DNA of 64,000 nucleotides. Origin: an uncultured Prevotellaceae bacterium (lineage in GTDB: Bacteria; Bacteroidota; Bacteroidia; Bacteroidales; Bacteroidaceae). Shown piece after piece: positions 3,231 to 57,284 of this stretch. A program made the position numbers and the translations under genes. How positions within the stretch are numbered: the stretch's first letter is position 1; each line of letters opens with the position of its first letter. The stretch is taken from NCBI GenBank assembly GCA_902762565.1, contig CACWOS010000006.1, forward strand, positions 1-64,000, read 5' to 3'. The notes under the pieces were generated by a model. That model saw only the letters and a program-made list of their open reading frames with translations. It made no database searches and had not been told where the DNA came from.

Positions 3231-3253
3231 TTCAGAATTCAACAATAACAAAG

Positions 3254-3300
3254 TGGTTGGGAGCTCTCCAGTAGAGGGTTCCCGACCATTTTCTTGTCTT
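3254..3300 (+). terminator. Attenuator-like hairpin between rplL and rpoB
   Basis: A 9-bp stem (TGGTTGGGA 3254-3262 with TCCCGACCA 3280-3288, one G-T pair) contains an inner CTCT/AGAG stem and is followed by a T-rich stretch. Bacteria often place a leaky terminator here so that L7/L12 is made in excess over RNA polymerase. Because rpoB has no obvious separate promoter, partial readthrough is the simplest reading. Confidence 0.65.
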
Positions 3301-7180: not shown

Positions 7181-7186
7181 AGTGAG

Positions 7187-7215
7187 TTAAGAGTTAAGAA
7201 TTAAGAATTAAGAGT
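7187..7215. repeat. Heptamer repeat in the rpoC leader
   Basis: TTAAGAR units start at 7187, 7194, 7201 and 7208, exactly 7 bp apart, filling most of the 47-bp gap between rpoB and rpoC. This parallels the 9-bp array before rpoB. Confidence 0.85.
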
Positions 7216-7227
7216 TATATATAGAAT

Positions 7228-11556: not shown

Positions 11557-11580
11557 GCAATTGTAAATACTAATGATATT

Positions 11581-11626
11581 GAGAGGACATGTTCTCGCCT
11601 GCAATGGTGAATATGTCCTCTCTTTC
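11581..11626 (+). terminator. Terminator after rpoC
   Basis: GAGAGGACAT (11581-11590) pairs with ATGTCCTCTC (11613-11622), followed by TTTCT. The loop can form a further small stem. It lies 25 bp after the rpoC stop. Confidence 0.75.
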
Positions 11627-11644
11627 TATTAAAACAATATTCAT

Positions 11645-13402
11645 ATGAAAAAACTCTTAATCCTTGCTATTATTGCCATGTCATCGCTGGACGTTTCTGC
11701 CTATCAGTTGAAGCGTGTGAGTGTCCATGATCCTAGCATTGTGTGGGAACCAACGTCCCAGACTTACTATATCTTCGGTTCTCATCGTGCCAGTGCCAAG
11801 AGTAAGGACTTGATGAGTTGGACTTCGTTTACAGCACCTTGGCAGACGGCTACTAGCAACAATGCGTCTAATGCCTCTGCTTTTACTACACCACAGGTAA
11901 CTAAGGTCAGGAAAGGTGGAGTTGAAGTCGATCTCCCGATTTTCAATGCTGTTGCTTGGTCTGCACGTGGTGGCAATGGCTACAATGTCAATGGGAATAT
12001 GTGGGCACCTGATGTCATTTGGAACAAGGTGATGCAGAAGTGGTGCATGTACCTTAGTATCAATGGCAATGATTGGTACAGCAGTATCATTATGCTTACG
12101 GCCGACAATATAGAAGGTCCCTATCGCTATCAAGCCCCTGTTGTCATCAGTGGATTCAAGAAAGGTACTGAGTATAAGAATACCGATTTAGAGTTGGTGA
12201 TTGGTACGCAGAGTACGTTACCCAATCGCTATGCTGAACCCTGGGCTTCTACTGGAAAGGCTAGTATGCCAAACAATATAGACCCCTGTGTGTTTTATGA
12301 CGAAGAGGGTAATCTCTGGATGAGTTACGGTTCGTGGAGTGGGGGCATCTTTATGTTGGAATTGGATGAGACGACAGGTTTGCGAGACTATGATGTTACT
12401 TATCCATTGTCAACCAACAGCGATCCCTATTTTGGCAAACGTATTGCTGGCGGATACTATGTCAGTGGCGAGGCTTCTTATATTGAGTATATTGGTGGCT
12501 ACTATTACCTGTTTGTGAGCTATGGTGGACTAGCAGCTGGTGGCAATCCTGACGATTATAATAATGGTGGCTACCAGATGCGCGTGTTCCGTTCTGATAA
12601 GCCAGACGGGCCCTACAAGGATGCCAGAGGTAATAATGCTGTATATTCATCGTTTACGGTGAATTTTGGCACCAGTGATACAAGCAATCGTGGCATTAAC
12701 ATCTTCGGAGCCTATGGTGAGTGGGGCAATCAGGCAAATGGTAACTATGGTGAGCGTTCGCAAGGACATAACAGTATTATTGCTGCAGAGGACGGTCGCA
12801 CGTATCTAGTCTATCATACACGTTTTCAGAACGCTGGTGAAAGTCATCAGGTGCGTGTCCATCAGGTATTCCAGAATGCGAAAGGATGGCTGGTGGTTGC
12901 GCCTTTCGAGTATACTGGTGAGACGGTGACGAGTGCTGATGTCACTAACAGTCAGCAGGTGTCCACCAATCGTATCGCAGGCACTTATCAATTATTGATT
13001 CATCGCTATAAACTTGATCATACAAAGAAGGAACAGGCAACACCCGTAGAGATTCAATTGAATGCCGACGGCACTATCAGTGGTGCCTTGTCTGGCAACT
13101 GGACTATCCATGAGGGTACCTCTTATATTGATATCAAGTTGGGAAGCGTTACCTATCAAGGTGTGATGGTTGAACAAACACTGGAACCGACCACCACGAC
13201 AACGATAGCCTTTACTGCCGTGTCGACTTCTGGTGTCAGCGTGTGGGGTTATCAGACGGCAAAGGCATCAGCAATTCATAAGATGAATGCTGATGCCTTG
13301 AATATTGAGACGCCTGTTTATGACTTGTCGGGGCGTTATGTCAGTAGCATCAACCGAAGGGGTATTTATATCCAAAAGGGCCGAAAATTGCTGACTCGAT
13401 AA
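11645..13402 (+). CDS. Secreted GH43 family glycoside hydrolase (arabinanase-like) with T9SS-type tail
   Basis: This 585-residue protein starts with a signal peptide (about 19 residues, ending VSA). A five-bladed propeller GH43 domain follows, with the HDPSIV catalytic-base motif near residue 28, a second DPCVFYDEEG motif near 212, and SGEASY near 275 as the likely general-acid region. Closest in feel are endo-1,5-alpha-L-arabinanases, which cut pectic arabinan. A beta-sandwich region lies after about residue 440. The last 25 residues (YDLSGRY...RRGIYIQKGRKLL) match the T9SS sorting tail style. It stands alone after the rpoC terminator; substrate is inference. Confidence 0.85.
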   Translation: MKKLLILAIIAMSSLDVSAYQLKRVSVHDPSIVWEPTSQTYYIFGSHRASAKSKDLMSWTSFTAPWQTATSNNASNASAFTTPQVTKVRKGGVEVDLPIFNAVAWSARGGNGYNVNGNMWAPDVIWNKVMQKWCMYLSINGNDWYSSIIMLTADNIEGPYRYQAPVVISGFKKGTEYKNTDLELVIGTQSTLPNRYAEPWASTGKASMPNNIDPCVFYDEEGNLWMSYGSWSGGIFMLELDETTGLRDYDVTYPLSTNSDPYFGKRIAGGYYVSGEASYIEYIGGYYYLFVSYGGLAAGGNPDDYNNGGYQMRVFRSDKPDGPYKDARGNNAVYSSFTVNFGTSDTSNRGINIFGAYGEWGNQANGNYGERSQGHNSIIAAEDGRTYLVYHTRFQNAGESHQVRVHQVFQNAKGWLVVAPFEYTGETVTSADVTNSQQVSTNRIAGTYQLLIHRYKLDHTKKEQATPVEIQLNADGTISGALSGNWTIHEGTSYIDIKLGSVTYQGVMVEQTLEPTTTTTIAFTAVSTSGVSVWGYQTAKASAIHKMNADALNIETPVYDLSGRYVSSINRRGIYIQKGRKLLTR

Positions 13403-37146: not shown

Positions 37147-38544
37147 ATGATTAAGAAAATATTTTTATCACTGACTTGCGTAGTTGCTCTTGTGGCATGT
37201 ACAGAGGACTACAAAGATTGGACTACACCTGCCAAAGTAGAACAGCCTGCCGCTGCAACTTTTACTGATGGTACTGTGGCTACTACAGGTGTCTCAATCA
37301 ACTTGAATACGCTTCCCGCTGGTCAGGACAGCGTACAGGTTGTCAACATTACGACTGCTCCTACTGCTTCTGATGCAGCCTATGCTCCTGTCTATACTAT
37401 CAATCTTGGTGACTTTGAGTATGATGTAGATGCTACGGGCCGTATGGCTGCAGCAGATCTCCAGGAGTATATTGCCCAGACATTTGGACGTAATCCGAAT
37501 ATTCTCCGTACGTTTAATGCAACGCTGAATATGTGGGTGTCTAATGGCGGTACGAACATAAAAACTGGCACTTCGGCTCCTTTCCAGATTCAGGCTTATG
37601 CCAAGGCTCCGTTCATCGAACAGAAGTATTATATCACAGGTAATATTAACGGTTGGAATAATGGTAATAAGGATTACGAACTGACAAATGACGGTTCAAG
37701 TCCTTATGATAATCCAACGTTTACATGTCGTGTTCCTGTCACTGATGACGCAGTGAAAGATGGCATCATCAAGTTTAAGGTTACTCCTGAATCAAAGATT
37801 GGTACTGGCGATTGGAACAGCTGTTTGGCTGCAGGCGAAAAGGGAACTTTTAACTACGATAATCAAGGTTCAGACTTTGTCGTAGAAATTGAGAAGAATG
37901 CAAAGTTCTATGACCTGACTTTCAAGATGCTGGATCAGACATGGGAAGCTAAGGCAGTCAAGTTCAATGAATACATTTATGAGATTGGTAACAGTCACGG
38001 ATGGAGCAGTTCTATGCCACTTCGCAGCCCGTCGTTCGATGGTAAGTACCAAGGTTACTATTATTTGGATGGTGGATTCAAGTTCAAGCCCAATGCTGAC
38101 AACTGGAATGATGACTGGGGACAGGATCCAAACGGTGAAGAAGGAAAACTGGTTCAGGAAGGTGAGAAGGACTGTAATGCCGCAGCAGGCTTCTATCAGA
38201 TTGACGTTGACCTCTCTGCAATGAAATGGTCTATTACTAAGGTTAATAGTATCAGTATCATCGGTACTGTCAACGGTAATTGGGACACCGACACCGATTT
38301 GACCTATAACAAGGAAACTGGTGCATGGGAGGGCACTACAGCCCTGTCAGCTGGTGCAATGAAGTTCCGTATGAATCATGATTGGACTATTAGCTGGGGT
38401 GGTGCTAACGGCGATCCTACTGCTTTCGACAATCTTACGCAGAATGATGGTAAAGACCTTACTTTAGCAGAGGCTGGTACATATAAGGTTCAGCTCTACA
38501 TTGCTTATGAAGGAAACAACAAAGTCGTAGTTACAAAGCAGTAA
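37147..38544 (+). CDS. susF: SusF-like surface starch-binding lipoprotein
   Basis: The 465-residue lipoprotein has lipobox VVAC. It has an N-terminal SusE/F-type beta domain and tandem starch-binding modules with repeated motifs YYITGNINGWNNGNKDYEL, YEIGNSHGWSSSMPLRSP and SIIGTVNGNWDTDTDL. Each carries the WN/WS aromatic pattern that stacks on glucose rings. It is the last gene of susCDEF and is followed by a terminator. Confidence 0.9.
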   Translation: MIKKIFLSLTCVVALVACTEDYKDWTTPAKVEQPAAATFTDGTVATTGVSINLNTLPAGQDSVQVVNITTAPTASDAAYAPVYTINLGDFEYDVDATGRMAAADLQEYIAQTFGRNPNILRTFNATLNMWVSNGGTNIKTGTSAPFQIQAYAKAPFIEQKYYITGNINGWNNGNKDYELTNDGSSPYDNPTFTCRVPVTDDAVKDGIIKFKVTPESKIGTGDWNSCLAAGEKGTFNYDNQGSDFVVEIEKNAKFYDLTFKMLDQTWEAKAVKFNEYIYEIGNSHGWSSSMPLRSPSFDGKYQGYYYLDGGFKFKPNADNWNDDWGQDPNGEEGKLVQEGEKDCNAAAGFYQIDVDLSAMKWSITKVNSISIIGTVNGNWDTDTDLTYNKETGAWEGTTALSAGAMKFRMNHDWTISWGGANGDPTAFDNLTQNDGKDLTLAEAGTYKVQLYIAYEGNNKVVVTKQ

Positions 38545-38749: not shown

Positions 38750-38780
38750 TATTTTACGATGCAAAAAATCGGGCAAAGAT

Positions 38781-38868
38781 TTTGCGTGTACCCGCAAGGC
38801 GTTTTGCGTATACCCGCAAGGCGTTCTGCGTATGCCCGCAAGGTGTTTTGGGCAGGCCCGTAAGGTTG
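38781..38868. repeat. 22-bp tandem array (4 units) in the susF-amylase spacer
   Basis: Units begin at 38781, 38803, 38825 and 38847. The anchor CCCGCAAGG recurs at 38791, 38813 and 38835, and as CCCGTAAGG at 38857. Within the first two units TTGCG and CGCAA flank a 6-nt loop. Short open frames over this array follow the repeat and are not genes. Confidence 0.92.
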
Positions 38869-39248: not shown

Positions 39249-39270
39249 CACCGGATTAAACTATAACTTG

Positions 39271-41016
39271 ATGAATATGAAGAAATTTATACTTTCACTG
39301 ATAACGATGCTGGCCTCGTTGTCCATGCTGGCACAGGGATGGCCTTCACAGTATGAGGGCGTGATGTTGCAGGGATTCTACTGGGACTCGTACACAGATA
39401 CGAACTGGGCAAACTTAGAGTCGCAGGCCGATGAAATGTCGCAATTCTTCGACCTCATCTGGGTGCCTAACTCAGCATACGCCAACGCGTTGACCATGAA
39501 TATGGGCTATCATCCCGTCTATTGGTTCGACCACAAGAGTGCTTTCGGTACAGAGGCACAGCTACGCTCGATGATCAATACCTTTAAGGCAAAGGGTACG
39601 GGCATTATTGAGGATGTCGTTATTAACCATCGTGCCAGTGTTGACGGCAACTGGTTGCATTTCCCTGCTGAGACATATAAAGGTGTGACCTATCAGCTGA
39701 CGGCTGCAGACATCTGCAGAACCGACGAGGCAAAAGACAATGGTTACAATCCTACAGGAGCCAATGATACTGGTGATAATTGGGGCGGTGCACGCGACTT
39801 AGACCATACAGGCGCTAATGTTCAGAAGAATGTGAATGCCTATCTCGACTTCCTGCTCAACGATTTGGGTTATATAGGTTTCCGCTATGACTTCGTAAAG
39901 GGTTTTGCCGCCAAGTATGTGGGGCAGTATAATGTGACCGCTAAGCCCAAGTTCTCCGTAGGCGAGTGCTGGGACGGCAATAAAACGGTGGTGACCAACT
40001 GGATTAACGGCACCAAGCAGGACGATGTCATCCAGAGTGCAGCCTTCGACTTCCCGCTGAAGTACTATATCAACGATGCTTTTAGCGGTGGCAAATGGAG
40101 CCGGTTGAAGGATGGCTGTCTGTCTGACGATGACAACTACAAGCGCTATGCCGTGACGTTTGTCGACAACCATGATACTGGACGTCAGGGCGAATGTCCG
40201 CTCTATGCCAATGTGGAAGCTGCCAATGCCTTTATCCTCACGATGCCTGGTACCCCCTGTGTATGGCTGAAACACTGGCAGACGTACAAGACGACAATTA
40301 AGAAGCTTATTCTAACGCGTAAAGCCGTAGGTGTGAACAACGAGAGTAACATTATCTCCATGCAACCAGAGGCAACAGGCTGCACTGTTATGGTACAGGG
40401 CAAAAACGGAAAGATGCTTCTGCTGTTAGGCGATGTAACCAATGGTGGCAACAGCAGCGATTTAAAAGTTGCAGTTCAAGGTACAAACTTTAAATTGTTG
40501 GTTAGCGACAATATTGACCTATCGGCACTCGACAATATCAAGGAGAACGAGTTTATTGCTCCTGATTGCTGCCAAGTGGAAGAAGGTGAGGTATGTGCTT
40601 TCTTCGAGGCACCCACCTCATGGAGTGTCGTGAAATGCTGGGCATGGGACTCGAAGAATAACTATACTGGAGGTTCATGGCCTGGTGCTGCCTGTACAAA
40701 GGTCGGCACGAATAATGGTAAGAACGTGTGGAAATGGAGCTATAGCGGTATGCTGACAACACAGCCCACCTTTATCATATTTAACAACAATAATAACGGA
40801 CAGCAAACTGCTGACCTTAACTTTAAGAACGGCGGCTACTACAATGAGGCTGGTGCACTGCAGGGACAGGTGACAGGCATCGACGACGCTTTGCGTCTAA
40901 ATGATAAAGAACAAATGATAAATGCTAAGTGGTACGACCTCAGTGGTCGCCGACTCAACGGTCAGCCGACGAAGAAAGGCCTGTATATCGTCAATGGCCG
41001 AAAGGTCATAAGATAA
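39271..41016 (+). CDS. GH13 alpha-amylase with CBM26-like module and T9SS-type tail
   Basis: The 581-residue secreted enzyme has an SPase I-type signal peptide, with no lipobox. Its GH13 barrel shows nucleophile Asp in GFRYDFVKG, acid/base Glu in SVGECWDG and the third acid in VDNHDTG. A starch-binding module (KCWAWDSKNNYTGGSWPG, about 450-535) resembles CBM26. The tail YDLSGRR...KKGLYIVNGRK fits T9SS sorting. It takes the place of SusG, which in Bacteroides is a lipoprotein. The ATG at 39271 follows the promoter; a TTG at 39268 is in frame. Confidence 0.9.
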   Translation: MNMKKFILSLITMLASLSMLAQGWPSQYEGVMLQGFYWDSYTDTNWANLESQADEMSQFFDLIWVPNSAYANALTMNMGYHPVYWFDHKSAFGTEAQLRSMINTFKAKGTGIIEDVVINHRASVDGNWLHFPAETYKGVTYQLTAADICRTDEAKDNGYNPTGANDTGDNWGGARDLDHTGANVQKNVNAYLDFLLNDLGYIGFRYDFVKGFAAKYVGQYNVTAKPKFSVGECWDGNKTVVTNWINGTKQDDVIQSAAFDFPLKYYINDAFSGGKWSRLKDGCLSDDDNYKRYAVTFVDNHDTGRQGECPLYANVEAANAFILTMPGTPCVWLKHWQTYKTTIKKLILTRKAVGVNNESNIISMQPEATGCTVMVQGKNGKMLLLLGDVTNGGNSSDLKVAVQGTNFKLLVSDNIDLSALDNIKENEFIAPDCCQVEEGEVCAFFEAPTSWSVVKCWAWDSKNNYTGGSWPGAACTKVGTNNGKNVWKWSYSGMLTTQPTFIIFNNNNNGQQTADLNFKNGGYYNEAGALQGQVTGIDDALRLNDKEQMINAKWYDLSGRRLNGQPTKKGLYIVNGRKVIR

Positions 41017-48400: not shown

Positions 48401-49045
48401 ACGACCACCACCATAGCCGTATATCTTTACCTTATTAATGTCGTTGAAACCGGCCTTTTTGATTAAATCGTTCGTCAACTGATAGATGCCAGATACAGGC
48501 ACGCGGATCTTGGCCCACGAGCCTGACCTTAATACGGAGTTGTCTGCATAGCGCTGCGACGCAGCCCTTCGTGATGTTGTTATTCCGTCATTCCGTAATG
48601 TCGTTATACCGTCATTCCGTGATTCCGTGATTCCGTGACTCCGAATTCCCAATTTGAAGCTCACCAGCTTCTGATACTGTCCGTCGCGATAGACTAGGGG
48701 AATGAAACCAATGTGCAGCGTACCCTGCTTACGGTCGACGCTGATGGAATGGGCAATTTCTGGCATCGCAGGCAACTCCTCATTCCTCATGCCTGATTCT
48801 TCATTCCTAATTTGATGGAATCTTTCAATTTCGGCCGATTCCATCGGAACAAACTCAGGATATTCTATCGTAACCTCATAGGTGGAGTCCGCATAGTTGG
48901 GCCCTAACGGATAGGCATAGTTGAAGACGGGTAACAGCGTGTCAATCCTGACTTCATCAGCAGTCAGGTTGAAGAACCTTTGCGCGTTGGCTGTCAAGCC
49001 AACAAGCATTAACAGTACACATGTTATCGTCTTCTTAAATGTCAT
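45404..49045 (-). CDS. porU: Type IX secretion system sortase PorU (C25 gingipain-like)
   Basis: The 1213-residue protein has a signal peptide (about 1-21), a propeptide-like beta region (about 22-430) and a C25 peptidase domain with YLLLLGDAAWDNRM, catalytic His in NYSGHG and catalytic Cys in WMTASCDIMPF. It ends in an Ig-like domain and a tail with FDISGRHLW...GVYLYRVQL. PorU cuts the C-terminal signal from T9SS cargo and attaches it to A-LPS on the cell surface. Its start overlaps the FAH gene (ATGA). An 8-bp repeat lies within codons about 134-154. Confidence 0.95.
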   Translation of the reverse strand: MTFKKTITCVLLMLVGLTANAQRFFNLTADEVRIDTLLPVFNYAYPLGPNYADSTYEVTIEYPEFVPMESAEIERFHQIRNEESGMRNEELPAMPEIAHSISVDRKQGTLHIGFIPLVYRDGQYQKLVSFKLGIRSHGITESRNDGITTLRNDGITTSRRAASQRYADNSVLRSGSWAKIRVPVSGIYQLTNDLIKKAGFNDINKVKIYGYGGGRQPEQLTADYLVETDDLKELATCTVNGRRLFYAVGPVTWDSSYKRIRNNYSDYGYYFLTEDDSTPLTVEKEEFLKAYYPLRDDYCTLYEVDDYAWFHGGRNLYDATEIQAGTTKSYTISARGTGRGQLTIVLTAYGGAGITVALNGETLGTMTIPKQGEYESMLTSTRTFIVSNLQASNTVSVTTSASSGTTRLDYISIYAEQPQSAPDLEGGSFGTPEYLYHITNQNHHADTAVDMVIIIPTTQKLMKQAERIKALHEAHDTLRVRIVPADELYNEFSSGTPDANAYRRYVKMLYDRAETEEDMPKYLLLLGDAAWDNRMRCSEWANTSPDDFLLCYESENSYSHTSCYVSDDYFGLLDDNEGASLLTEKTDIAVGRITARSNGDAEIVVDKIDNYINNKEAGIWQNTVFVMGDDGNQNCHMEDADSVAHLTELLHPNLQVKRVMWDAYTRVTTATGNRYPDVTRLIRQQMQQGALIMNYSGHGRADAISHEYVLTLTDYNLSSAMRLPLWMTASCDIMPFDGQEDNIGETALFNAKGGAIAFFGTTRTVYQPQNKLMNVAFTRQVLSRDESGQMMPIGEAVRRAKSELVTTGIIIGYQKDAQGNLRPIWSSDKSENKLQYTLLGDPAIRLALPTATIVVDSINHAAVSSDILTLKAGTTATVSGRVLNSNNETDTGFYGTVNAMVRDAKEKIVCKLNDTSEADEPFVYYDRTSTIFNGNDSVRQGRFTFTFVVPKDISYSDQQGIINLFAVNSDKTKTANGRFENLVMNGKGEGSDNQQGPNIYCYLNSTSFVNGGNVNSTPYFVAEISDEDGINAAGNGIGHDLQLIIDGEMNKTYSLNEYFQYDFGSYTSGKLGYSIPALDYGKHHLLFRAWDVLNNSSTAEFDFNVVKGVEPLFSDMDCTPNPATTKTTFRIVHDRADSKMNVIIDIFDISGRHLWTHNESDTYSGNTLTIDWDLTTGGGSRLGTGVYLYRVQLSSEGSSYVSKAKKLIVLTNK
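48583..48643. repeat. Octamer tandem repeat inside porU (about 8 units)
   Basis: CCG/TCG anchors recur at 48585, 48593, 48601, 48609, 48617, 48625, 48633 and 48641, an exact 8-bp period of ATTCCGTN. Translation gives drifting RNDGITT-like peptides because 8 is not divisible by 3. It lies in the N-terminal pro-region, before the catalytic domain. Confidence 0.9.
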
Positions 49046-49659
49046 TTACAATTAAATTCCAATACTTTCCGCTCTTCCAACCACCCTTCCAGGTGGTCGT
49101 TAATCTTCACTGGTCCCACACCCACAGGTGTTCCTGTATACAGCAGGTCGCCCGTCTTCAGCGTGAAGAACTGCGAGATGTAGCTCACCAGTTCGTCAAT
49201 CTTGTAGAGCATGTCGCTCGTACAACCCTCTTGCACCGTCTGTCCGTTGATGTCCAGATGGAAGTGCAGCGCCTGCACGTCGCGAAATTTCTCCTTCTCC
49301 ACCCACTGGCCAATGACTGCCGAGCCGTCGAAACCCTTACAGATTTCCCAGGGCTGTCCCTTCTCGCGAGCCTCTCGTTGCCAGTCGCGTGCCGTAAAGT
49401 CGATGCCCACGGTCACAGCGTCGTAATAACGGTGGGCAAAGCGTTCTGGGATGCTCTTACCCAGTCGGCAAATCCTCACCACCAGCTCCGTCTCATAGTC
49501 CACCTGCGTGCTCCAGTCAGGTATGAAGAAGGGCTTGCCATCCTTCAACAGTGCCGAGTCCGCTTTGGTGAATATCACGGGCCTCTCTGGTTTATATAAC
49601 GCGCCATCCAGCTCTTTATTGTGCTGGATATAATTCATTCCTACTGCAAATATCTTCAT
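49042..49659 (-). CDS. Fumarylacetoacetate hydrolase family protein
   Basis: The 205-residue protein is the short FAH-fold type: MKIFAVGMNYIQHNKEL, KADSAL, DYETELVVRI with acidic metal ligands, AVTVGIDFTARDWQ, and LLYTGTPVGVGPVKINDHLEG. Members hydrolyse or decarboxylate beta-keto acids such as acylpyruvates or oxaloacetate; the exact substrate cannot be read here. It is the first gene of the run with porU, porV and ispF and has a good promoter. Confidence 0.9.
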   Translation of the reverse strand: MKIFAVGMNYIQHNKELDGALYKPERPVIFTKADSALLKDGKPFFIPDWSTQVDYETELVVRICRLGKSIPERFAHRYYDAVTVGIDFTARDWQREAREKGQPWEICKGFDGSAVIGQWVEKEKFRDVQALHFHLDINGQTVQEGCTSDMLYKIDELVSYISQFFTLKTGDLLYTGTPVGVGPVKINDHLEGWLEERKVLEFNCK

Positions 49660-49685
49660 AGTCCCTGTTTTTAATGTTCAGTCTG

Positions 49686-49716
49686 CAAAATTACACATTA
49701 TTCTTTATTTAGCAAA
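49686..49716 (-). promoter_or_regulatory. Promoter of the FAH-porU-porV-ispF run
   Basis: On the minus strand TTTG (49713-49716), 19 bp, then TAATTTTG (49686-49693). The start codon is 26 bp downstream. It is divergent from the promoter of the RAYT-like gene. Confidence 0.85.
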
Positions 49717-49730
49717 AATATGACCGCATA

Positions 49731-49762
49731 TTTGGTCGTTTTGTGTAAAAATGCTACTTTTG
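49731..49762 (+). promoter_or_regulatory. Promoter of the RAYT-like transposase gene
   Basis: TTTG (49731-49734), exactly 20 bp, then TACTTTTG (49755-49762). The first good ATG (49772) is nine bases after the -7 box, so the transcript would have almost no leader. This also rules out a start upstream at 49751. Confidence 0.85.
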
Positions 49763-49771
49763 CCTGTTGTT

Positions 49772-51055
49772 ATGAGCAGAAAGCGTGAAGAAGCAATTGC
49801 CGCAGGCATACACGTGAATGACATTCAGCACACGATGAAGCGTCGAACCCCTTCCCATAATTATTGTGATAAGGGTACATATATGCTGACATTGGTGGTC
49901 GATGGACGCATGCCGCTATTTGGTACGTTGAAAGGCAACGTACGCTTGCCGTTATCTGGTACGTTGAAAGGTGACGGCCGCATGCCGTTATCTGGTCCGT
50001 TGAAGGGTGACGAGCGCATGCCGTTATCTGGTCCGTTGAAGGGTGACGAGTTGGCATCATCAGCAACGGCTGATGCGCCTAGGGTCGTCTTGTCGCCATT
50101 GGGCGAGGCCATCCGCGACAAGGAGATCGCTAAAATCTCTGCAGTCTATCCGATGGTCGAGGTCTGGAAGCTCTGCATCATGCCTGACCACCTGCATATC
50201 ATCGTCAGGGTCAAGGAGAAGCTGCCTGAAGGCAAGCACCTAGGACATGTGGTTAGTGGCTTTATGACGGGCTGCACAAGGGCGTGGTGGGCGCTGGTAG
50301 AGGAGGGGAAGATGCCGCCCTTCGGAAAACCGAAGGGGACAGAGGGCTCCGCTTCGCCTCCTGGGGGCTCTGTCTCGCTTTCCCCTGCCTCCGCCTTGGT
50401 TGCTGGTGGCTCCGCTCCGCCTTTGGGGGCCTCCGTGCCCGCTGGTTCTCCAGCGGGCGGTGCTTCCGCTGCCCCTCGTCCGTCCCTCTTCGAAAAGGGC
50501 TACAACGACAAGATCCTTCTTCGTCCTGGACAGCTTGACAACTGGAAGCGCTACCTCGACGACAATCCTCGCCGTTTGGCCATCAAGCGCCAGTGTCCTG
50601 ATTACTTCACCATTATGCAACATATCACCATCGGCGAGTGGTCCTGTCAGATGGTAGGCAATCGCTTTCTGCTCACTGTCCCTGATCGCGCTGCCGTTAT
50701 TGTCCATCGTGCCGATAGCGATCAGGAGTTCGCACAGAAGAAAGCTCGATGGCTAGCTTTGGGTGAGATGGGTGGTGTGCTCGTCAGTGCTGCCGTTGCT
50801 ACCAGGGAGAAAGAGGTGATGCGCGAAGCGATGGACAGGGGCTATCGTCTGATTCTGCTTCGAGAAAATGGCTTTCCGCCCCTTTATAAGCCTGCTGGCG
50901 AGTCGTTCATGGCCTGCAGTGAAGGCCGCTTGCTGCAAATCAGTCCGTGGGAGTATCATATGCAGCGTAAGACCATCTCGCGCGAACAGTGTCTCATTCT
51001 CAATCGTTTGGCAGAAGAAATTGCAGGGGAAAATTATGACGACCTTGGGGGCTGA
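49772..51055 (+). CDS. HUH (Y1/RAYT-like) transposase-family protein with in-frame repeat insertions
   Basis: The protein (427 residues) has the HUH signature in LCIMPDHLHIIVRV (about residue 140) and a YLDDNPRRLA segment like the YIxxNPxxAG of REP-associated transposases. A C-terminal part (about 285-427, EMGGVLVSAAVATREKEVMREAMDRG) is not in classical RAYTs, and I do not recognise it. Two repeat blocks interrupt the domain: four 12-residue units (G/ERMPLSGPLKGD) and a Gly/Ala/Ser/Pro-rich block starting GKMPPFGKPKG. RAYTs nick hairpin-forming REP DNA; a 22-bp hairpin array lies just downstream. No IS ends are evident. Confidence 0.8.
   Translation: MSRKREEAIAAGIHVNDIQHTMKRRTPSHNYCDKGTYMLTLVVDGRMPLFGTLKGNVRLPLSGTLKGDGRMPLSGPLKGDERMPLSGPLKGDELASSATADAPRVVLSPLGEAIRDKEIAKISAVYPMVEVWKLCIMPDHLHIIVRVKEKLPEGKHLGHVVSGFMTGCTRAWWALVEEGKMPPFGKPKGTEGSASPPGGSVSLSPASALVAGGSAPPLGASVPAGSPAGGASAAPRPSLFEKGYNDKILLRPGQLDNWKRYLDDNPRRLAIKRQCPDYFTIMQHITIGEWSCQMVGNRFLLTVPDRAAVIVHRADSDQEFAQKKARWLALGEMGGVLVSAAVATREKEVMREAMDRGYRLILLRENGFPPLYKPAGESFMACSEGRLLQISPWEYHMQRKTISREQCLILNRLAEEIAGENYDDLGG
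49904..50047 (+). repeat. Four 36-bp in-frame repeats within the RAYT-like gene
   Basis: Four units of exactly 36 bp (12 codons) with core ATGCCGTTATCTGGT and CGTTGAAAGG. The first unit boundary holds a perfect hairpin, GTACGTTG-AAAGG-CAACGTAC (49923-49943). The third and fourth units are nearly identical, so the expansion is recent. Confidence 0.92.
50306..50470 (+). repeat. Palindrome-rich in-frame insertion within the RAYT-like gene
   Basis: The segment codes GKMPPFGKPKGTEG and then a low-complexity run. It starts with ATGCCG and a GAAGGG end as in the 36-bp units, and includes two perfect 8-bp hairpins: CCCTTCGG-AAAA-CCGAAGGG (50318-50337) and CCCGCTGG-TTCT-CCAGCGGG (50438-50457). It is markedly GC-richer than its surroundings. 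Confidence 0.85.
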
Positions 51056-51087
51056 TTTTTCACTCGTCGCAAAAAATGTCAAAAACT

Positions 51088-51177
51088 AACGTCAAACGTC
51101 ATAATCGCACTTAAATGGTTGTAGAATAAAGAGTTAGGCTATGACGTTTAGTGTTTTGAAACGTCATACTAACGTCA
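51088..51177. repeat. Cluster of AACGTCA motifs after the RAYT-like gene
   Basis: AACGTCA occurs at 51088, 51095, 51160 and 51171, and inverted as TATGACGTTT at 51140. TATGACGTTT (51140-51149) and AAACGTCATA (51159-51168) form a perfect 10-bp stem with a 9-nt loop; the same arm can pair with 51094-51103. Confidence 0.85.
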
Positions 51178-51261
51178 TTTTTGGCCTTTTTAGGGGCCTT
51201 TTTGGGTGCCTGAACCGTCTAAGCGCCTCGTTTACAGGCAGTTCGCAATCACATCGCTACG

Positions 51262-51509
51262 TGGGAACGAACCGTTCCCACGGCGGGAACAGTCCGTTCC
51301 CACGATGGGAACGGTTTGTTCCCATGTGTGGAACAGGTGGTAACCATCATCGGAACGACTGGTTACCATGAAGGGAACAATGGGTTACCACGAAGGAAAC
51401 AAAAGGTAACCATGAAGGGGGCACTTCACGCGAAGTAAGCAGAGCCCTTGCGCGAAGGAAGCGGAGGCCTCGTCCGAAGGAAGCGGAGCATGTGCGCGAA
51501 GGAAGCGGA
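51262..51509. repeat. 22-bp hairpin-unit array (11 units in register)
   Basis: Units start every 22 bp from 51262 to 51482 without a register break. Units 1-7 follow GGGAAC-N5-GTTCCCA drifting to GGTTACCA: a 7-bp stem, 5-nt loop and 3-nt spacer. Units 1 and 3 are perfect stems. Units 8-11 change to AGCGGAG...GCGCGAAGGA. No open reading frame is credible here. The array begins about 200 bp after the RAYT-like stop. Confidence 0.93.
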
Positions 51510-51822
51510 CGAGGGCTTTGGTGCTTTCGGACGACACAGATGATACTTTTGGAGGGCAGCAGGAGATGACGAAGGTTGCCAAAGGGTACGGAAAATGTTT
51601 CACGGACTTTCGAATTTGTGTTATTTTGCTGTTTTTGGTAAAATATAGGTGCATTTGTTTGGTAATCTCATGCTGATTGCTTAATTTTGTCCCCATCATC
51701 TTTTTATCACTAATTTGTGGTCGTACTATTCAATTACGGTATTTACTAACCCATTGATGTGATTACTAACTTGACAACGTGTTTTATTTGTTTTATTAAT
51801 ATAACTAACTAAAGTTTTAATT
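51510..51822. other. Spacer with no recognised gene
   Basis: The first part decays out of the 22-bp array; the rest is AT-rich and probably holds the promoter of the next gene, but I see no perfect TAnnTTTG pair. No structured element stands out. Confidence 0.4.
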
Positions 51823-53724
51823 ATGAGAAAATTTACTAAATCGATTCTGGCATTAGCAGCACTATTTATTGCTGTTGGTGCAAATGCAAAGACAGAAAAG
51901 GTGCATGCTACCTTTGCGAGTCCAAGTAACACGAATACAACATGGACACCTGATGGAACAGGTGCAACTCTGGGTACATTCACCTGGTCAACCACTTATT
52001 ACAACCAGCTGCGTAACATCGGTCTGCCCAGTGGCGATATTACGAAGTACAAGAAATTGGTTGTTGATTGCAAGATTAACAGCGGTGAACAGTTCCGTAT
52101 CCTGTTCTATAAGGGCGGTTCTAACTTGACCCTCTATGCCAGCAACGGTGTGAACGAGTTCATTCTGGCTGATACCCTCGCAAAAGTTTCTCCCAATGAT
52201 TATAATGAGTACTTGCTGGCTTGTGATGAGATTTGTCTTTCTGGTAATAATGGTGCTGCTCCTGGCGAGGCTGTCATTAACGATGTATATTTGGAGACTT
52301 ATGACGATGAGGGCCAGAAGGTTTATGCAACCTTTGCGAGTCCAAGTAACACGAATACGACATGGACACCTGATGGAACAGGTGCAACTCTGGGTACATT
52401 CACCTGGTCAACCACTTATTACAACCAGCTGCGTAACATCGGTCTGCCCAGTGGTGATATTTCAGGTTATAAGAAACTGGTTGTTGATTGCAAGATTAAC
52501 AGCGGTGAACAGTTCCGTATCCTGTTCTACAAGGGCGGCTCTAACTTGACCCTCTATGCCAGCAACGGTGTGAACGAGTTCATTCTGGCTGATACCCTCG
52601 CAAAAGTTTCCCCCAATGATTATAACGAGTACTTGTTGGCTTGTGATGAGATTTGCCTCTCTGGTAATAATGGCGCTGCTCCTGGCGAGGCTGTCATCAA
52701 GAGTGTTTATCTGGAGACCTATCCTGAGAATGAGCAAGTAGATATACCTGATATTGTCTATGAGGAAGATCCCGGTAAACCCTCTGGTGACTATGTAGAC
52801 TTTACTACTGCATTCCCCAGCCTCCAGCCTAGAATTGGTATTGGTCAGGACACTCATCCTATTGTGCTTGGTAATGGTGATGTTGTTGTTGGTGCAAGAA
52901 GCAAGAATGTTATTGCAGATCTTTCTCCATACAGCAAGATAACGTTTGTGACCTCTCCCAACTTGAAGCTAGTGCTTTACATGAATCATGAGGTTGATGC
53001 TCAGCAGAATGCTGGTGACTATGCCGAGGGTGATGCTGGTAAATATGTATTCCTGAATACTCAAGCAGATGAGAATGGTATTATTGAAGTTGACCTGACT
53101 GCTTATAACAAGCAGGATTTGAACTGTATTGCTCTACCTTGGGACAATTCTAACAAGGGTACTGTATGGTATATCCTTCTGACAAAGGCTACTGGTGCTA
53201 ATGTAACTATTGGTAGTTCTGGTTATGCAACATTCTCTTACACAAAGCACGTTGAGATTCCTGATGGTGTAGAAGCATTTGCAGCACAGGTTCAGGGTAA
53301 TAAGGTTATTCTTAATAAGGTTGATGTGGTTCCTTCTAACAATGCAGTTATTCTTAAGGCTAATGCAGGTAATTACTCACTGCCATTTGCTGTGAGTGCG
53401 TCTGCTATTGCTAACAACGACCTGCTCGTTTCTGATGGTAATGTTACTGGCGACGGTACTATCTATGTACTGGCTGATGGTAAGAATGGCGTTGGCTTCT
53501 ACAAGCTCACAAGTGGCCAAAAGGTTCCTGCTGGTAAAGCATACCTGACGATTGGGTCTGGTGCAGCTCCTGAGTTCCTCGGCTTCGGAGGTGATGCTAC
53601 TGGCATCAATGAGGTTAAGGCTGTTGAGGCTAAGGGCGAGTTCTTCAACCTTGCTGGTCAGCGTGTGGCTAAGCCTGCTAAGGGTCTCTACATTGCGAAT
53701 GGTAAAAAAGTTATCGTTAAGTAA
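51823..53724 (+). CDS. Secreted repeat protein with T9SS-type tail, unknown function
   Basis: The 633-residue protein has a signal peptide (ending GANA) and two almost identical 140-residue beta-rich repeats (about 26-305; each contains ATFASPSNTNTTWTPDGTG). A third beta domain follows, then a region resembling surface adhesin stalk modules (YATFSYTKHVEIPDGVEAFA, about 465-590), and a C-terminal tail FNLAGQRVAKPAKGLYIANGKK. The repeats look like carbohydrate-binding or adhesive beta-sandwiches, but I do not recognise a family. A small peptide gene follows. Confidence 0.85.
   Translation: MRKFTKSILALAALFIAVGANAKTEKVHATFASPSNTNTTWTPDGTGATLGTFTWSTTYYNQLRNIGLPSGDITKYKKLVVDCKINSGEQFRILFYKGGSNLTLYASNGVNEFILADTLAKVSPNDYNEYLLACDEICLSGNNGAAPGEAVINDVYLETYDDEGQKVYATFASPSNTNTTWTPDGTGATLGTFTWSTTYYNQLRNIGLPSGDISGYKKLVVDCKINSGEQFRILFYKGGSNLTLYASNGVNEFILADTLAKVSPNDYNEYLLACDEICLSGNNGAAPGEAVIKSVYLETYPENEQVDIPDIVYEEDPGKPSGDYVDFTTAFPSLQPRIGIGQDTHPIVLGNGDVVVGARSKNVIADLSPYSKITFVTSPNLKLVLYMNHEVDAQQNAGDYAEGDAGKYVFLNTQADENGIIEVDLTAYNKQDLNCIALPWDNSNKGTVWYILLTKATGANVTIGSSGYATFSYTKHVEIPDGVEAFAAQVQGNKVILNKVDVVPSNNAVILKANAGNYSLPFAVSASAIANNDLLVSDGNVTGDGTIYVLADGKNGVGFYKLTSGQKVPAGKAYLTIGSGAAPEFLGFGGDATGINEVKAVEAKGEFFNLAGQRVAKPAKGLYIANGKKVIVK
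51898..52737 (+). repeat. 420-bp tandem duplication within the secreted protein gene
   Basis: Two consecutive copies of 420 bp are nearly identical at DNA level (for example CTTTGCGAGTCCAAGTAACA at 51912 and 52332). Most differences are at third codon positions or near the unit ends (ITKYKK against ISGYKK). Confidence 0.93.
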
Positions 53725-53788
53725 TTAATGAGTCATTCATGGTGAATTAATGGTAATTTCTGTTAAACATTAAAAGAAAATAAACAAT

Positions 53789-53980
53789 ATGAAGAAAACA
53801 TATATGCATCCAGAAATGGAGATTGTAGAGATTAAGTCACAAGTGTTGTTGGCTGGCTCAATGGAGGTCTTTAACGATGAAGTAGGAGGTGGCGACGTTC
53901 TGGCTCCTGAATTCGAGGAGATTCCTGGTCTGAATATTGGCCCCAGCATTCCTGGACTCAATATTCCTGGCGGACTCTAA
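53789..53980 (+). CDS. Small protein of the MKKxYxxPExEIVEI...LLAGS type
   Basis: This 63-residue protein has a conserved-looking N-terminus (MKKTYMHPEMEIVEIKSQVLL), a break AGS at residues 27-29, and an acidic then Gly/Pro/Ile-rich C-terminus with repeated PGLNI. I believe such small proteins are common in Prevotella and Bacteroides and have no known function. The leader-like half ending in small residues and variable core would also fit a processed peptide, but no modification or export enzyme is adjacent. A strong terminator follows. Confidence 0.75.
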   Translation: MKKTYMHPEMEIVEIKSQVLLAGSMEVFNDEVGGGDVLAPEFEEIPGLNIGPSIPGLNIPGGL

Positions 53981-54002
53981 ACATCAGAGATATGTCATAT
54001 TT

Positions 54003-54047
54003 TCAGGCGAGGCCCCGATCCATCGGGTGTCTCGCCTGATATTTTTT
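54003..54047 (+). terminator. Terminator after the small protein gene
   Basis: TCAGGCGAG (54003-54011) pairs with CTCGCCTGA (54031-54039), the loop adds a CCCGAT/ATCGGG stem, and a run of six T follows. Confidence 0.92.
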
Positions 54048-54056
54048 CTGAAAAAG

Positions 54057-54088
54057 TTTGGAATATTTAAAATTAATCCCTACCTTTG
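54057..54088 (+). promoter_or_regulatory. Promoter of the DUF6722 gene, likely leaderless
   Basis: TTTG (54057-54060), exactly 20 bp, then TACCTTTG (54081-54088). The ATG is only four bases further (54093), so transcription would start at or next to the start codon. Confidence 0.88.
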
Positions 54089-54092
54089 CAGC

Positions 54093-54299
54093 ATGAAAAA
54101 AGAATTTGGGAAATGGCTAATGGATATAGCCAAATATATGGTTACGGCATTATTGCTGTCGACAATCTTTGCAGACATGCATGAGCCTATCATTATTTAT
54201 ATGGTGGTGATTATGTCTGTAATCGTTCTCGGTTTTGGATTGTATTGGGTTAATGAAGGTGAAACTACTGAACAAAAGAAAAATAAGAAGAAAAAATGA
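54093..54299 (+). CDS. DUF6722-like small membrane protein
   Basis: The 68-residue protein has two transmembrane helices (about 13-27 and 33-50) and a lysine-rich tail; the start MKKEFGKWLMDIAKYMVTALLLS fits the DUF6722 family as I know it from Bacteroidota. Function is unknown. I use the ATG at 54093 because the promoter lies directly before it; longer in-frame starts run through the terminator. The next gene overlaps by ATGA. Confidence 0.85.
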   Translation: MKKEFGKWLMDIAKYMVTALLLSTIFADMHEPIIIYMVVIMSVIVLGFGLYWVNEGETTEQKKNKKKK

Positions 54300-54409
54300 A
54301 TACGATAATTGTTTCTGTTTCTATTGTATTAATCGCTGTAGTAGGAACTATATTGCTTAAATATCATGACTGGCAGGAAGAGAAGCATCATTCTATTTCT
54401 GCGGAGTAA
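54296..54409 (+). CDS. Very small membrane protein (37 residues)
   Basis: This reading frame starts in the ATGA overlap with the DUF6722 stop. It encodes one hydrophobic helix (IIVSVSIVLIAVVGTILLK) followed by a short polar tail (HDWQEEKHH). The tight coupling and partner-like topology suggest a real small protein. No family is recognised. Confidence 0.6.
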   Translation: MNTIIVSVSIVLIAVVGTILLKYHDWQEEKHHSISAE

Positions 54410-55394
54410 TGAAAGATTATTACTTGTCCTGCTGCTTTTGATGCTGACGACGGTGCTGCGTGCACAGTCGGAGGCTGACCCACGATGCCTGCAGTTGATG
54501 GGCATACCGTTGGAGGGACCGGTGGACAGCGTGAGCCAACGGCTGACGGAAGCGGAGTTTGCAGAGTGGGGCAGGAGCGACGATGGCGAGGACTACTACT
54601 TTCGTGGAAAATTCTATGGCATCAGGGCGAAACTGCTGGTGAGCACCAATGCCAAGACGCACTTCGTGGAGTCGGCCTACATCACGGTGGGCCCCTACAG
54701 CACGAAGTCGATGTTCGAGAGGAACTTCCAGTATTTCTTTTATAAGCTGCAGAAGGACTATGGCGAGTTTACCCAGCGCGATGGTGCGTGGTACTACATG
54801 GACGACTACGGCAGCGTGAAGATATCCGAGGTGCAGAACGAGAATGGGTCGCGCGACATCCGCGTGTTCTACTATCCTACTGCGGCTTTCTATAAGGATG
54901 CGATGACTATGGGACTGCATGGCCCTGTGCAGGAGGTCGTGACGGAGAATGCCGTATCAGAAGACCAGTTTCTGCGCTTCTCGCAGGACGGACAACTGGA
55001 GAATCCTGACCTCGTAAATCGCGAATACGACCGCTACGGCTATCTGCGACATGCCCGCATGACGGAAAAGCAGGGCTTTAGCGACGTGGAATATACCTAC
55101 GACAGCCGCTACAGGCTGGTGAAGCGTACGCTGACCAACCAAACGGCTAACATTCGCTACGTGAACGAATATACCTATAACGACCAAAACGAAATCATGT
55201 CGCAGAACCAGAAGGTGTTCGACAAGACAGGACAATGCGTGATGACCATCAACATGCACAACTCGTACCTGACGCGTGACGACTACGGCAACTGGACGTC
55301 GAACTCGATGACGCTATCGTACTGGGAGGAGGGTAGCCAGAGCCAACAGACCACTGTGCTGCAGAAGCGCGTCTTGGAGTATTGGGAGGACTAA
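54366..55394 (+). CDS. Secreted protein of unknown function with YD-like repeats
   Basis: The 342-residue protein has a signal peptide (RLLLVLLLLMLTTVLRAQ, about 17-34) and no lipobox. Its C-terminal half has YDRYGYLRHARM, YTYDSRYRLVKRTL and YTYNDQNEIMSQ, reminiscent of short YD/RHS-like beta repeats. It starts inside the preceding small gene in another frame (44-bp overlap), so the precise start is uncertain. Function is unknown. Confidence 0.78.
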   Translation: MTGRKRSIILFLRSNERLLLVLLLLMLTTVLRAQSEADPRCLQLMGIPLEGPVDSVSQRLTEAEFAEWGRSDDGEDYYFRGKFYGIRAKLLVSTNAKTHFVESAYITVGPYSTKSMFERNFQYFFYKLQKDYGEFTQRDGAWYYMDDYGSVKISEVQNENGSRDIRVFYYPTAAFYKDAMTMGLHGPVQEVVTENAVSEDQFLRFSQDGQLENPDLVNREYDRYGYLRHARMTEKQGFSDVEYTYDSRYRLVKRTLTNQTANIRYVNEYTYNDQNEIMSQNQKVFDKTGQCVMTINMHNSYLTRDDYGNWTSNSMTLSYWEEGSQSQQTTVLQKRVLEYWED

Positions 55395-55532: not shown

Positions 55533-57218
55533 ATGAAAATAGAATCGTTTACAAACAGTCTAGTGAAGATGGTAAACAGCCGCATGATGCTGTTGCTGTT
55601 GGCATTGGTATGTGTGAATGGCGCCAGTGCACAAGACGACGAGGATGATCCTCGCGAGAGTTTCAAGAAGGCACGCGCTGCCATGCAGAAGGACTATGAC
55701 GACTTCCGCAAGCAGGCGCTGGCCGAGTATAGTGAGTTTGTGCGCCAAGCTTGGAAGAAGTTCAACGCCGAGCCTGCCGTCCCTGCCCCCAAGGAGCAGG
55801 AGATACTGCCACAGCTAGCCCCAGGTGCCGACCAGGAGACAGCTTCGTGGTTTGGCAAGCAGATGTCGAAGTTAGGCGACCTGTTCAAGAGCAAGAACAG
55901 AAAGGTGCCCGATCAGCTGCAGCCCAAGCAGGAACCCCAGGCCAAAGCTAAGAAGAAGGAACAGAAGCCCGTGGTACACGTACAGGCCACTGTCCAGGAG
56001 GTCATCAAGCCCGAGGCTCCTACGCCACAGCCCCAACCGCTGGCTGAGGTGAAGGAGGAGACCTTCCGTCAGAACAACTACATGAAGTTCTATGTGTTTG
56101 GCACGGAGTGTAAGGTGCGTATTGGCGAGAATTGCCGCTTTAAGATGAAGGACGTGTCGTCGGACGTCATTGCCGACCTGATTCGCGACGAGTTCCCTAA
56201 GACACAGTATGACAACATGTTGTACGACTGTCTGCAGGAGCGCAAGCGCCACGACTTCTCGGACTGGGCCTACTACCAGATGCTGTACACCCTGACACAG
56301 CAGTTCTATGGCGAAGGTACCAACGAAGCCGTGCTGGCACAGGCATTCCTCTATTCGCAGTCAGGCTATAAGATGCGTCTGGCCCACGACGAGAGCCACC
56401 TGTACATGCTGGCTGCTACGCGCCACTTCATCTATAACAAGCTGTTCTACTCGATGGATGGCGACTGGTACTTCATGCTCGAAGGCAAGCAGAGCAGCTC
56501 GCTGGGCATCTGTCAGGCTTCGTTCCCCAAGGAGAGCTCACTGTCGCTGCAGATCTCTACGGCTCAGCGTCTAGCCATGAATCCCTCGAACGAGCGTACC
56601 ATCACCTCGACGAAGAATCCCGACTTCTCGTTCACCATCCACTCGAACAAGAACTACATCGACTTCCTGAGCACTTATCCGTCGTCGATGGTCAACAATA
56701 ACTTCATGACACGCTGGTCGATGTATGCCAACTGTCCGTTGGAGGAGGACATCCGCAACCAGTTGTATCCGCAGATGAAGGAGAAGCTGGAGGGCAAGAC
56801 GGAGCTGCAGTCCGTACAGGAGCTGCTGTGGTGGTTGCACGGCAATATCGATCTGGAGGGTGTTATTCAGGATTCTAACTGCTTCCTCTATCGCTATGAC
56901 GAGGATGTATGGGGTACCGACCGTGCCTTCTTTGGCGAAGAGACCCTGTTCTATCCGTATTGCGACTGTGAGGACCGCTCGATTCTGCTGTCTCACTTCG
57001 TTCGCGACGTCGTTGGACTGGACTGTGTGCTGGTGTACTATCCTGGCCACCTGGCTATGGCTGTCAACTTCAACGAACCTGTGGAGGGCGACTACGTGAT
57101 GTGTGAGGGACGTAAGTTCATCATCTGTGACCCAACGTATATCGGATCGCGCGTAGGCGAAACGATGCCGATGGTGCAGAACGAGCCGACAACAGTCATC
57201 CTTCTGCAGAGAGGTTAA
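55533..57218 (+). CDS. Secreted transglutaminase-like cysteine protein
   Basis: The 561-residue protein has a signal peptide (ending ASAQ, about 34), a charged coiled region with many K, E and Q and a PxP linker (about 40-170), and a C-terminal domain. That domain has the order Cys (CDCEDRSILLSHF, about 480), His (YPGHLAMAV, about 507) and Asp (FIICDPTYIG, about 532), the catalytic triad order of the transglutaminase-like fold. It may be a periplasmic peptidase or crosslinker; target unknown. Confidence 0.78.
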   Translation: MKIESFTNSLVKMVNSRMMLLLLALVCVNGASAQDDEDDPRESFKKARAAMQKDYDDFRKQALAEYSEFVRQAWKKFNAEPAVPAPKEQEILPQLAPGADQETASWFGKQMSKLGDLFKSKNRKVPDQLQPKQEPQAKAKKKEQKPVVHVQATVQEVIKPEAPTPQPQPLAEVKEETFRQNNYMKFYVFGTECKVRIGENCRFKMKDVSSDVIADLIRDEFPKTQYDNMLYDCLQERKRHDFSDWAYYQMLYTLTQQFYGEGTNEAVLAQAFLYSQSGYKMRLAHDESHLYMLAATRHFIYNKLFYSMDGDWYFMLEGKQSSSLGICQASFPKESSLSLQISTAQRLAMNPSNERTITSTKNPDFSFTIHSNKNYIDFLSTYPSSMVNNNFMTRWSMYANCPLEEDIRNQLYPQMKEKLEGKTELQSVQELLWWLHGNIDLEGVIQDSNCFLYRYDEDVWGTDRAFFGEETLFYPYCDCEDRSILLSHFVRDVVGLDCVLVYYPGHLAMAVNFNEPVEGDYVMCEGRKFIICDPTYIGSRVGETMPMVQNEPTTVILLQRG

Positions 57219-57221
57219 GAA

Positions 57222-57284
57222 GTGATGAGTGAGAAGTGATGAGTGAGAAGTGATGAGTGAGAAGTGATAAGTGATAAGTTAAGA
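57222..57284. repeat. Heptamer repeat before the PEGA protein gene
   Basis: GTGAT starts at 57222, 57236, 57250, 57264 and 57271. The tract is a 7-bp array alternating GTGATGA and GTGAGAA, ending GTGATAA twice. It fills most of the gap to the next start codon. Confidence 0.92.

Follow-up and report, generated by a model that had tools for sequence, protein, structure and literature searches.

According to the portions available of two sources (PMC2817692, PMC3733652), repetitive extragenic palindromes (REPs) and bacterial interspersed mosaic elements (BIMEs) are short extragenic palindromes of species-specific sequence, which alternate in orientation at a regular spacing. In the accessible part of the TnpA-Y1 classification, proteins of Bacteroidetes are placed in subclass 2.6, which has other motifs, and the atypical structures of this subclass are described as lacking the GT[AG]G consensus (PMC6006769). 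BrickBuilt, a miniature inverted-repeat transposable element (MITE) of Porphyromonas gingivalis, is presented in the section available of its source as a 23-nt minisatellite with one species-wide unit, a leader and a tail (PMC4596501). The present analysis concerns a 64,000-nucleotide stretch of DNA (the window) from an uncultured Prevotellaceae bacterium (contig CACWOS010000006.1, positions 1 to 64,000), in which an array of 22-bp palindromic units follows a gene encoding a protein with an HUH motif. The original prediction had described the two as a possible REP system served by a REP-associated tyrosine transposase (RAYT), with the array as the substrate of the protein. The reading preferred here, to which a probability of roughly 70 % may be assigned, is that the arrays are palindrome lattices of a REP/BIME-like kind, which lengthen by 22 bp at a time and serve as sites for a putative dyad-symmetric protein, while the HUH gene, whose product is predicted to include a DprA-like domain (HUH-DprA), is a separate neighbour.

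The 22-bp lattice in the window and in the genus

Two arrays were found in the window, the second in addition to the one described in the original prediction:

51264..51505, no strand: 22-bp array of 11 units repeating at exactly 22 bp; the dyad lattice call spans 51216-51403
38780..38866, no strand: another 22-bp array, whose dyad lattice has 11-bp spacing, flanked by the called genes 37147-38544 and 39268-41016

The first array starts 209 bp past the stop of the HUH gene, in agreement with the predicted 11 units in exact register about 200 bp downstream. Its units 1-3 (51264-51329) are perfect palindromes, TGGGAAC-N5-GTTCCCA, separated by a 3-nt spacer, and have the 7-5-7-3 layout that had been proposed for the early units. 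Since units 4-7 are partly decayed, with arms that match only in part (GGAAC or GAAAC ... GGTAACC/GGTTACC), and units 8-11 have a different common core (CGAAGTAAG or CGAAGGAAG), the term hairpin suits the first part of the array alone. The lag-22 scores are 52.6 and 30.4, whereas 300 dinucleotide shuffles of 50901-52000 reach 10.0 at most; the lattice score is 50.8, and 14.0 at most in dinucleotide shuffles. When 51258-51420 was folded as single-stranded DNA (ssDNA), a z score of -6.9 was obtained, with 0 of 200 shuffles equally stable. The 15-mer GGAACAGTCCGTTCC occurs at five places, in six copies, in the genome of the window (G000), which indicates that the units are dispersed in that genome. 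The gene flanking the second array is poorly conserved.

Lattices, defined by arms of 6-7 bp, dyad centres 11 bp apart and a 22-bp unit, were sought at a strict threshold in 1.61 Mb of the window's genus, which we take to be Prevotella (window included), and in 321,484 bases from ten other families of the same order. The scan yielded 49 lattices in the genus and 0 in the 321 kb of the other families; 48 of the 49 are mostly intergenic, about 74 % of the scanned genus DNA having been called coding by a simple, purpose-written gene caller. The spacing between dyad centres, determined from inverted repeats and thus irrespective of repeat identity, peaks in the genus at 11, 22, 33, 44 and 55 bp (58, 33, 32, 30 and 22 occurrences, with 1-3 in nearby shuffled bins), and these peaks are absent from the other families. 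Lattice scanning at different spacings gave 93 lattices at 11 bp, 7-40 at 13 other spacings (40 at 10.5) and 9 in shuffled DNA. The same preference is visible in the repeat period: stretches of 13 genus members, totalling 1.547 Mb, contain 40 arrays at period 22, 5 at 21, 1 at 23 and 0 at 19 or 20. In 73 loci, 21 arrays located outside the HUH genes have period 22 (12 near and 9 far; L036 and L095 are one stretch of DNA, so that one array is included twice), compared with 1, 1, 7, 2 and 6 at periods 19, 20, 21, 23 and 24. No earlier description of 22-bp lattices in Prevotella was met in the openly licensed literature searched. Arrays of 21 bp are present in some species (L204 of G003 at 3191-3273; L072 of G021), and a spacing of 10.5 forms a second peak (40 compared with 12 at 11.5). 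A long array with a 44-bp period, possibly a doubled 22-bp unit, lies at 1167-1666 of L248 (G105, another genus of the family) and has an 11-bp dyad lattice at its end.

The unit sequence is species-specific and partly locus-specific, and the geometry is common to the genus: identity of 17/22 was reached by 0 of 1073 unit pairs between genomes and by 22 % of the 103 pairs within genomes, and the within-genome mean was reached by 0 of 2000 label shuffles. The two arms of the units change together, as 2242 paired cells were counted versus 2075 after shuffling (maximum of 300 shuffles, 2117), and two-sided arm changes amount to 183 versus 129 shuffled (maximum 151). In the 25 lattices that lie between tandem genes, the sense strand contains 89 G.T and 91 A.C arm mismatches. 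Co-variation without an excess of G.T points to symmetry that is kept at the DNA level.

These counts bear on the explanation that the arrays act as RNA hairpins, being terminators, mRNA 3'-end stabilisers or clusters of small RNAs, which is considered improbable. It would be consistent with the stable fold reported above, although that region was folded as DNA, and with the placement of the lattices. Among the 42 lattices for which both neighbouring genes were called, 25 lie between tandem, 12 between convergent and 5 between divergent genes, compared with 46, 29 and 25 % of intergenic length, so that lattices between divergent genes are fewer, and the 25 tandem lattices are nearer to the upstream stop (median 170) than to the downstream start (345). 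However, selection for RNA structure was rejected on the equality of G.T and A.C. An Rfam scan of 144 kb at gathering score (the window, L201, L202, L195 and L127) gave two tRNAs and no other match, and an exact 11-bp dyad grid is unnecessary for RNA hairpins.

Growth of the lattices in place is suggested by the comparison of two loci, L062, with an 85-bp array of about four units, and L047, whose flanks are 91-93 % identical and which has one unit-like copy at that position (read by eye). Such growth would also be expected under the strongest rival explanation, in which the lattices are neutral palindromic minisatellites that arise by slippage or template switching and have no function, and many other tandem repeats do occur in these genomes. 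We regard this alternative as unlikely, given that one exact period is found over species with unrelated unit sequences, that the arms change yet stay complementary, and that one motif is present at several loci of a genome.

Under the preferred reading of BIME-like lattices, arrays would lengthen in place by 22-bp duplications and units would spread within a genome, and a putative host DNA-binding protein, dimeric or filamentous, would read the repeated two-fold site and thereby keep its symmetry, in a BIME-like role; the lattices would not need the HUH-DprA gene. A geometry that stays fixed across the genus while the sequence differs from species to species suggests a reader that gauges spacing and symmetry. 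In that case the chromosome of Prevotella, a major genus of the gut and the rumen, would carry a BIME-like layer. More tentatively, and rather doubtful at present, the lattices, which by extrapolation from 49 in 1.61 Mb number about a hundred intergenic copies per chromosome, might be platforms for a protein that polymerises at an 11-bp two-fold pitch and co-evolves with the motif; they would then belong to a system that organises or silences the chromosome, its ruler being conserved and its code drifting.

Lattices in genomes with and without the HUH gene

The density of lattices is similar in genomes with and without the HUH gene family, as represented by a 22-member profile: eight genomes without a match have 28 lattices in 851 kb (32.9 per Mb) and six with a match have 23 in 860 kb (26.7 per Mb; rank test, p = 0.60). 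The numbers of lattices per kb are 0/40 in G003, 5/80 in G009, 5/200 in G023, 6/60 in G025, 7/200 in G084, 1/71 in G098, 2/100 in G099 and 2/100 in G034 for genomes without a family match, and 7/260 in G000, 6/200 in G015, 2/80 in G033, 4/200 in G068, 3/100 in G078 and 1/20 in G082 for those with one. Evenly spaced stretches from one- or two-contig genomes gave 12 lattices in 400 kb without the gene (G023, G084) and 10 in 400 kb with it (G015, G068). The motif GGAAC-N5-GTTCC was also counted in 16 genomes, with the reversed motif as a control (in brackets): 15 (6) in G034, a close relative without the gene; 12 (7) in G000, 3 of them in the window array; 10 (4) in G079, which is 62 % complete and has no HUH match; 2 (6) in G032, with four HUH matches; and 1-5 (1-10) in the remaining twelve. 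Similar counts without the gene imply that the units do not need the HUH protein.

On these figures, it is improbable that the 22-bp units are a non-autonomous substrate which the HUH protein binds, cuts and disperses, and a dedicated REP/RAYT pairing was rejected on the similar lattice density without the gene. G023 and G025 contain arrays and show no match to the family profile, NF047646 or Y1_Tnp, and G034, with its GGAAC-N5-GTTCC units, has none to the family profile or NF047646 (Y1_Tnp was not searched there). The units near different family genes are unrelated to one another. The pairing would be favoured by the RAYT-like Y1 fold with intact HUH and YxxxNP motifs, the distance of 209 bp between gene and array, the dispersal of the 15-mer, the approximately two-fold enrichment of arrays near family genes (given below) and the overlap of GTGG, one form of the GT[AG]G foot, with some unit arms. 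GTGG is found at 51261, 51328 and 51337 and CCAC at 51278, 51300 and 51388, within arms and without forming a regular foot, subclass 2.6 itself being described without a GT[AG]G consensus; GTAG is absent from the + strand of 51241-51520 and occurs once on the - strand, at 51257-51260, at the left edge of the array and on the 3' side of the first hairpin. Of the predicted system, the RAYT-like nature of the protein and the REP-like nature of the array, as dispersed extragenic palindromes, hold up, and the pairing of protein and substrate is not supported: comparable numbers in gene-less genomes, the result fixed beforehand as speaking against it, were found in this sample, and the window array is probably not the HUH protein's own substrate. 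Arrays of heptamers, which had seemed tied to HUH-rich genomes, were likewise rejected as an HUH-linked repeat, as the HUH-less G034 has 10 in 100 kb (across L273-L277). These 7-bp arrays are also dense in G000 (21 in 260 kb, including 7184-7217 and 57218-57279 of the window), G078 (8 in 100 kb) and G033 (4 in 80 kb), and are sparse in the other sampled genomes of the genus.

Several observations weigh against the preferred reading. Arrays are denser within 1 kb of HUH-DprA genes, where 42.7 intergenic kb contain 15 (0.351 per kb, L036 being left out). Further out at these loci, 66.0 intergenic kb contain 11 (0.167 per kb; p = 0.07), and the remaining Prevotella stretches have 62 in 405 intergenic kb (0.153 per kb; Poisson p = 0.003, which becomes 0.007 when the window is excluded); the near-gene set spans several genera, and some of its arrays are hardly palindromic. 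G003 and G098, which lack an HUH match, have 0 and 1 lattice, and the gene-less genomes could have lost the HUH enzyme recently. The sampling was not entirely random, in that the stretches of G000, G078, G033 and G082 were drawn from contigs bearing HUH genes, the window itself was picked for its array (without it, the gene-bearing genomes have 21 lattices in 796 kb), and L277, one of the five G034 stretches, was sited at known unit matches (without it, the gene-less genomes have 27 in 831 kb). The intergenic assignments depend on the simple gene caller, the co-variation shuffles leave the relatedness of neighbouring units in place, and local growth is documented by a single pair, in which the lattice score of L062 (16.5) is below the strict threshold. 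At a lax threshold, the other families have 6 lattices at spacing 11, which does not exceed the numbers at other spacings, and their 321 kb also contain one array of period 22 and one of period 23. Within the family, the 120 kb sampled in 7 other genera (8 genomes) contain 1 lattice and 2 period-22 arrays; the genus boundary is therefore not sharp, and the feature thins out. Finally, because no DNA-binding protein was identified as the reader of the lattices, their function is something that we infer.

A further such point is that 5 of the 49 lattices have inverted matches between their left and right flanks (34-158 bp), as a mobile element might, and in one the flanks match directly over 30 bp; a few pairs of lattices in G025, G078 and G084 share flank sequence. 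This would suit a MITE-like mobile minisatellite of the BrickBuilt kind, the known case of which, in the source portion at hand, is a tandem 23-nt repeat of the same order that is always intergenic (PMC4596501). Such an origin is very improbable, since flanks of up to 300 bp a side show no general leader or tail among the 49 lattices, the unit varies between species, and the period is 22 rather than 23; a BrickBuilt-type MITE was rejected because the flanks are mostly unrelated, though a minority match. The 100 % flank matches in L145 are overlapping stretches of one DNA and not common ends. L145 (G068) has three lattices within 1.2 kb (11464-12700) with an inverted repeat of about 160 bp (77 %) between them, and may be one larger element. 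At L108 (13797) and L114 (10170), both of G023, the lattice's own flanks match in inverted orientation over 102 and 71 bp, like a longer imperfect palindrome.

The predicted HUH-DprA protein and its genomic place

The gene upstream of the first array and its surroundings include the following features:

49772..51055, + strand: HUH/Y1 (RAYT-like) gene with a predicted DprA-like C-terminal domain, 427 aa
49907..50050, + strand: 4 in-frame copies of a 36-bp repeat, located in the protein's first variable linker
50180..50197, + strand: HUH motif MPDHLH, its two His residues identical in every row of alignments A1 (22 rows) and A2 (27 rows)
50552..50569, + strand: YxxxNP motif YLDDNP, Tyr invariant in A2 and at least 90 % conserved in A1
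50552..51052, + strand: C-terminal stretch modelled alone, DprA-like fold, 167 aa, pLDDT 90.6
49673..54463, no strand: segment missing at the corresponding place in relatives (ends approximate), with the HUH gene, the array and a gene at 51823-53724

The predicted HUH and YxxxNP protein at 49772 is borne out, with MPDHLHII starting at 50180 and YLDDNPRRLA at 50552; another ATG lies upstream in the same frame, at 49751. The His, His, Tyr, Asn and Pro of the two motifs are invariant in all 27 rows of A2, and the Tyr of YLDDNP is the likely nucleophile, an assignment that follows work on TnpA and RAYT proteins. The W[EQ] motif ahead of the Tyr motif is not kept, being LF in most of the 22 members in A1 and LW or other residues in the remainder. 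The two linkers are variable, and the 30 tandem arrays detected inside HUH genes in the 73 loci all have periods that are multiples of three. The second linker (about 50300-50480) is of low complexity, and relatives carry different in-frame repeats in their linkers.

Profile matches of the window protein are below threshold, both for Pfam Y1_Tnp (E 0.047, 14.3 bits against a cut-off of 23) and for NF047646 (REP_Tyr_transpos; 21.9 bits against a curated cut-off of 80), and Y1_Tnp is found at E ≤ 1 in 27 of 27 family members. The model of a compact member (L046, pLDDT 88.3) was matched by Foldseek to the IS608 and ISDra2 TnpA (E 3e-6 and up) and the RAYT 4er8 (E 2e-5), as well as to DprA and ShosA. 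The long additional C-terminal domain that had been noted in the original prediction was confirmed and its structure predicted: in the model of this stretch from the window protein, Foldseek ranks 1-14 are all chains of DprA or of ShosA, which we take to be DprA-like. One DprA match is HpDprA 4ljk (E 1.6e-5, TM score by query 0.56, root-mean-square deviation about 5). At the level of sequence, no DprA model is among the 12 Pfam families matched at E ≤ 1, and a profile search for solved DprA chains matched none.

The window protein is thus predicted to combine a RAYT-like Y1 HUH enzyme with a DprA-like domain. Its most likely activity is the cutting and rejoining of ssDNA at hairpins, during which it would grip the strand via the DprA-like domain, a role proposed because of the modelled fold and the intact active-site residues. 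An HUH nuclease and a DprA-like domain in one chain would couple the cutting of ssDNA to its protection or to RecA loading. No earlier description of such a fusion was met in the openly licensed literature searched, and the term DprA has 0 occurrences in the TnpA-Y1 classification paper (PMC6006769).

The 22-member profile has matches, some of them partial, in 48 of 80 genomes of the genus and in 21 of the 42 high-quality ones, and 32 family loci are in GTDB genomes, mainly metagenome-assembled and labelled Prevotella, Prevotellaceae, Bacteroidaceae or Bacteroidales. The nearest named relatives of the protein are from Prevotella or Prevotellaceae, including P. communis. Comparison with phages and plasmids gave no match at E 1e-5, and PADLOC and PHROGs gave none either. 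An ordinary RAYT (NF047646, 95 bits, above the cut-off) is encoded in G000 at C4:47370-47837 (in L094), 3 kb from an HUH-DprA paralogue with a TGA stop within its frame.

The stretch of about 4.8 kb that contains the HUH gene, the array and the further gene looks like an insertion in the lineage of the window, because in relatives the orthologues of the FAH-like gene (49045-49659) and of the gene ending at 55394 are close together: in G032, G034, G097, G060 and G078 the latter adjoins the FAH-like gene or is at most 1.5 kb from it, the distance in G032 being about 130 bp. An HUH gene was found beside the FAH-like gene in 0 of 29 relatives, within mostly 1.5 kb on that side (0.13-1.2 kb in L208, L224, L229, L232 and L234). 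The gene at 51823-53724, downstream of the array, contains a 420-bp tandem duplication (93 % matches) at 51898-52722. A gene pair in G006 was rejected as a transposed element, as the whole 5845-bp stretch is duplicated at 99.97 % and is probably an assembly duplicate.

Comparison with described systems

The HUH-DprA protein resembles RAYT/TnpA-REP proteins, especially those of subclass 2.6 as set out in the available part of PMC6006769, in its HUH motif, its YxxxNP motif and its predicted Y1 fold. It differs from that subclass in having DHLH instead of NH[LIV]H and YLDDNP instead of YIH[QN]NP, again with reference to that part of the source (PMC6006769), and from RAYTs in the W of the WQ motif, which is mostly F in the family, in its long repeat-rich linkers and in the DprA-like C-terminal domain. 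The likeness to DprA (and ShosA) lies in the predicted fold of this domain, which, unlike DprA, is without a sequence-level match and sits behind a Y1 HUH domain.

As regards the arrays, the nearest published repeat met in the order is BrickBuilt, which, in the portion of its source at hand, likewise forms a tandem array of about 22 bp between genes (PMC4596501), whereas the lattices share a geometry with differing units and have no common leader or tail. The likeness to REPs and BIMEs is that of extragenic palindromes with species-specific sequence, alternating orientation and regular spacing. However, the window units are without a regular GTAG foot, lattices are present in G023, G025 and G034 without a detected RAYT, and what the lattices hold constant is an 11-bp dyad grid with a 22-bp unit, on which the sequence itself is free.

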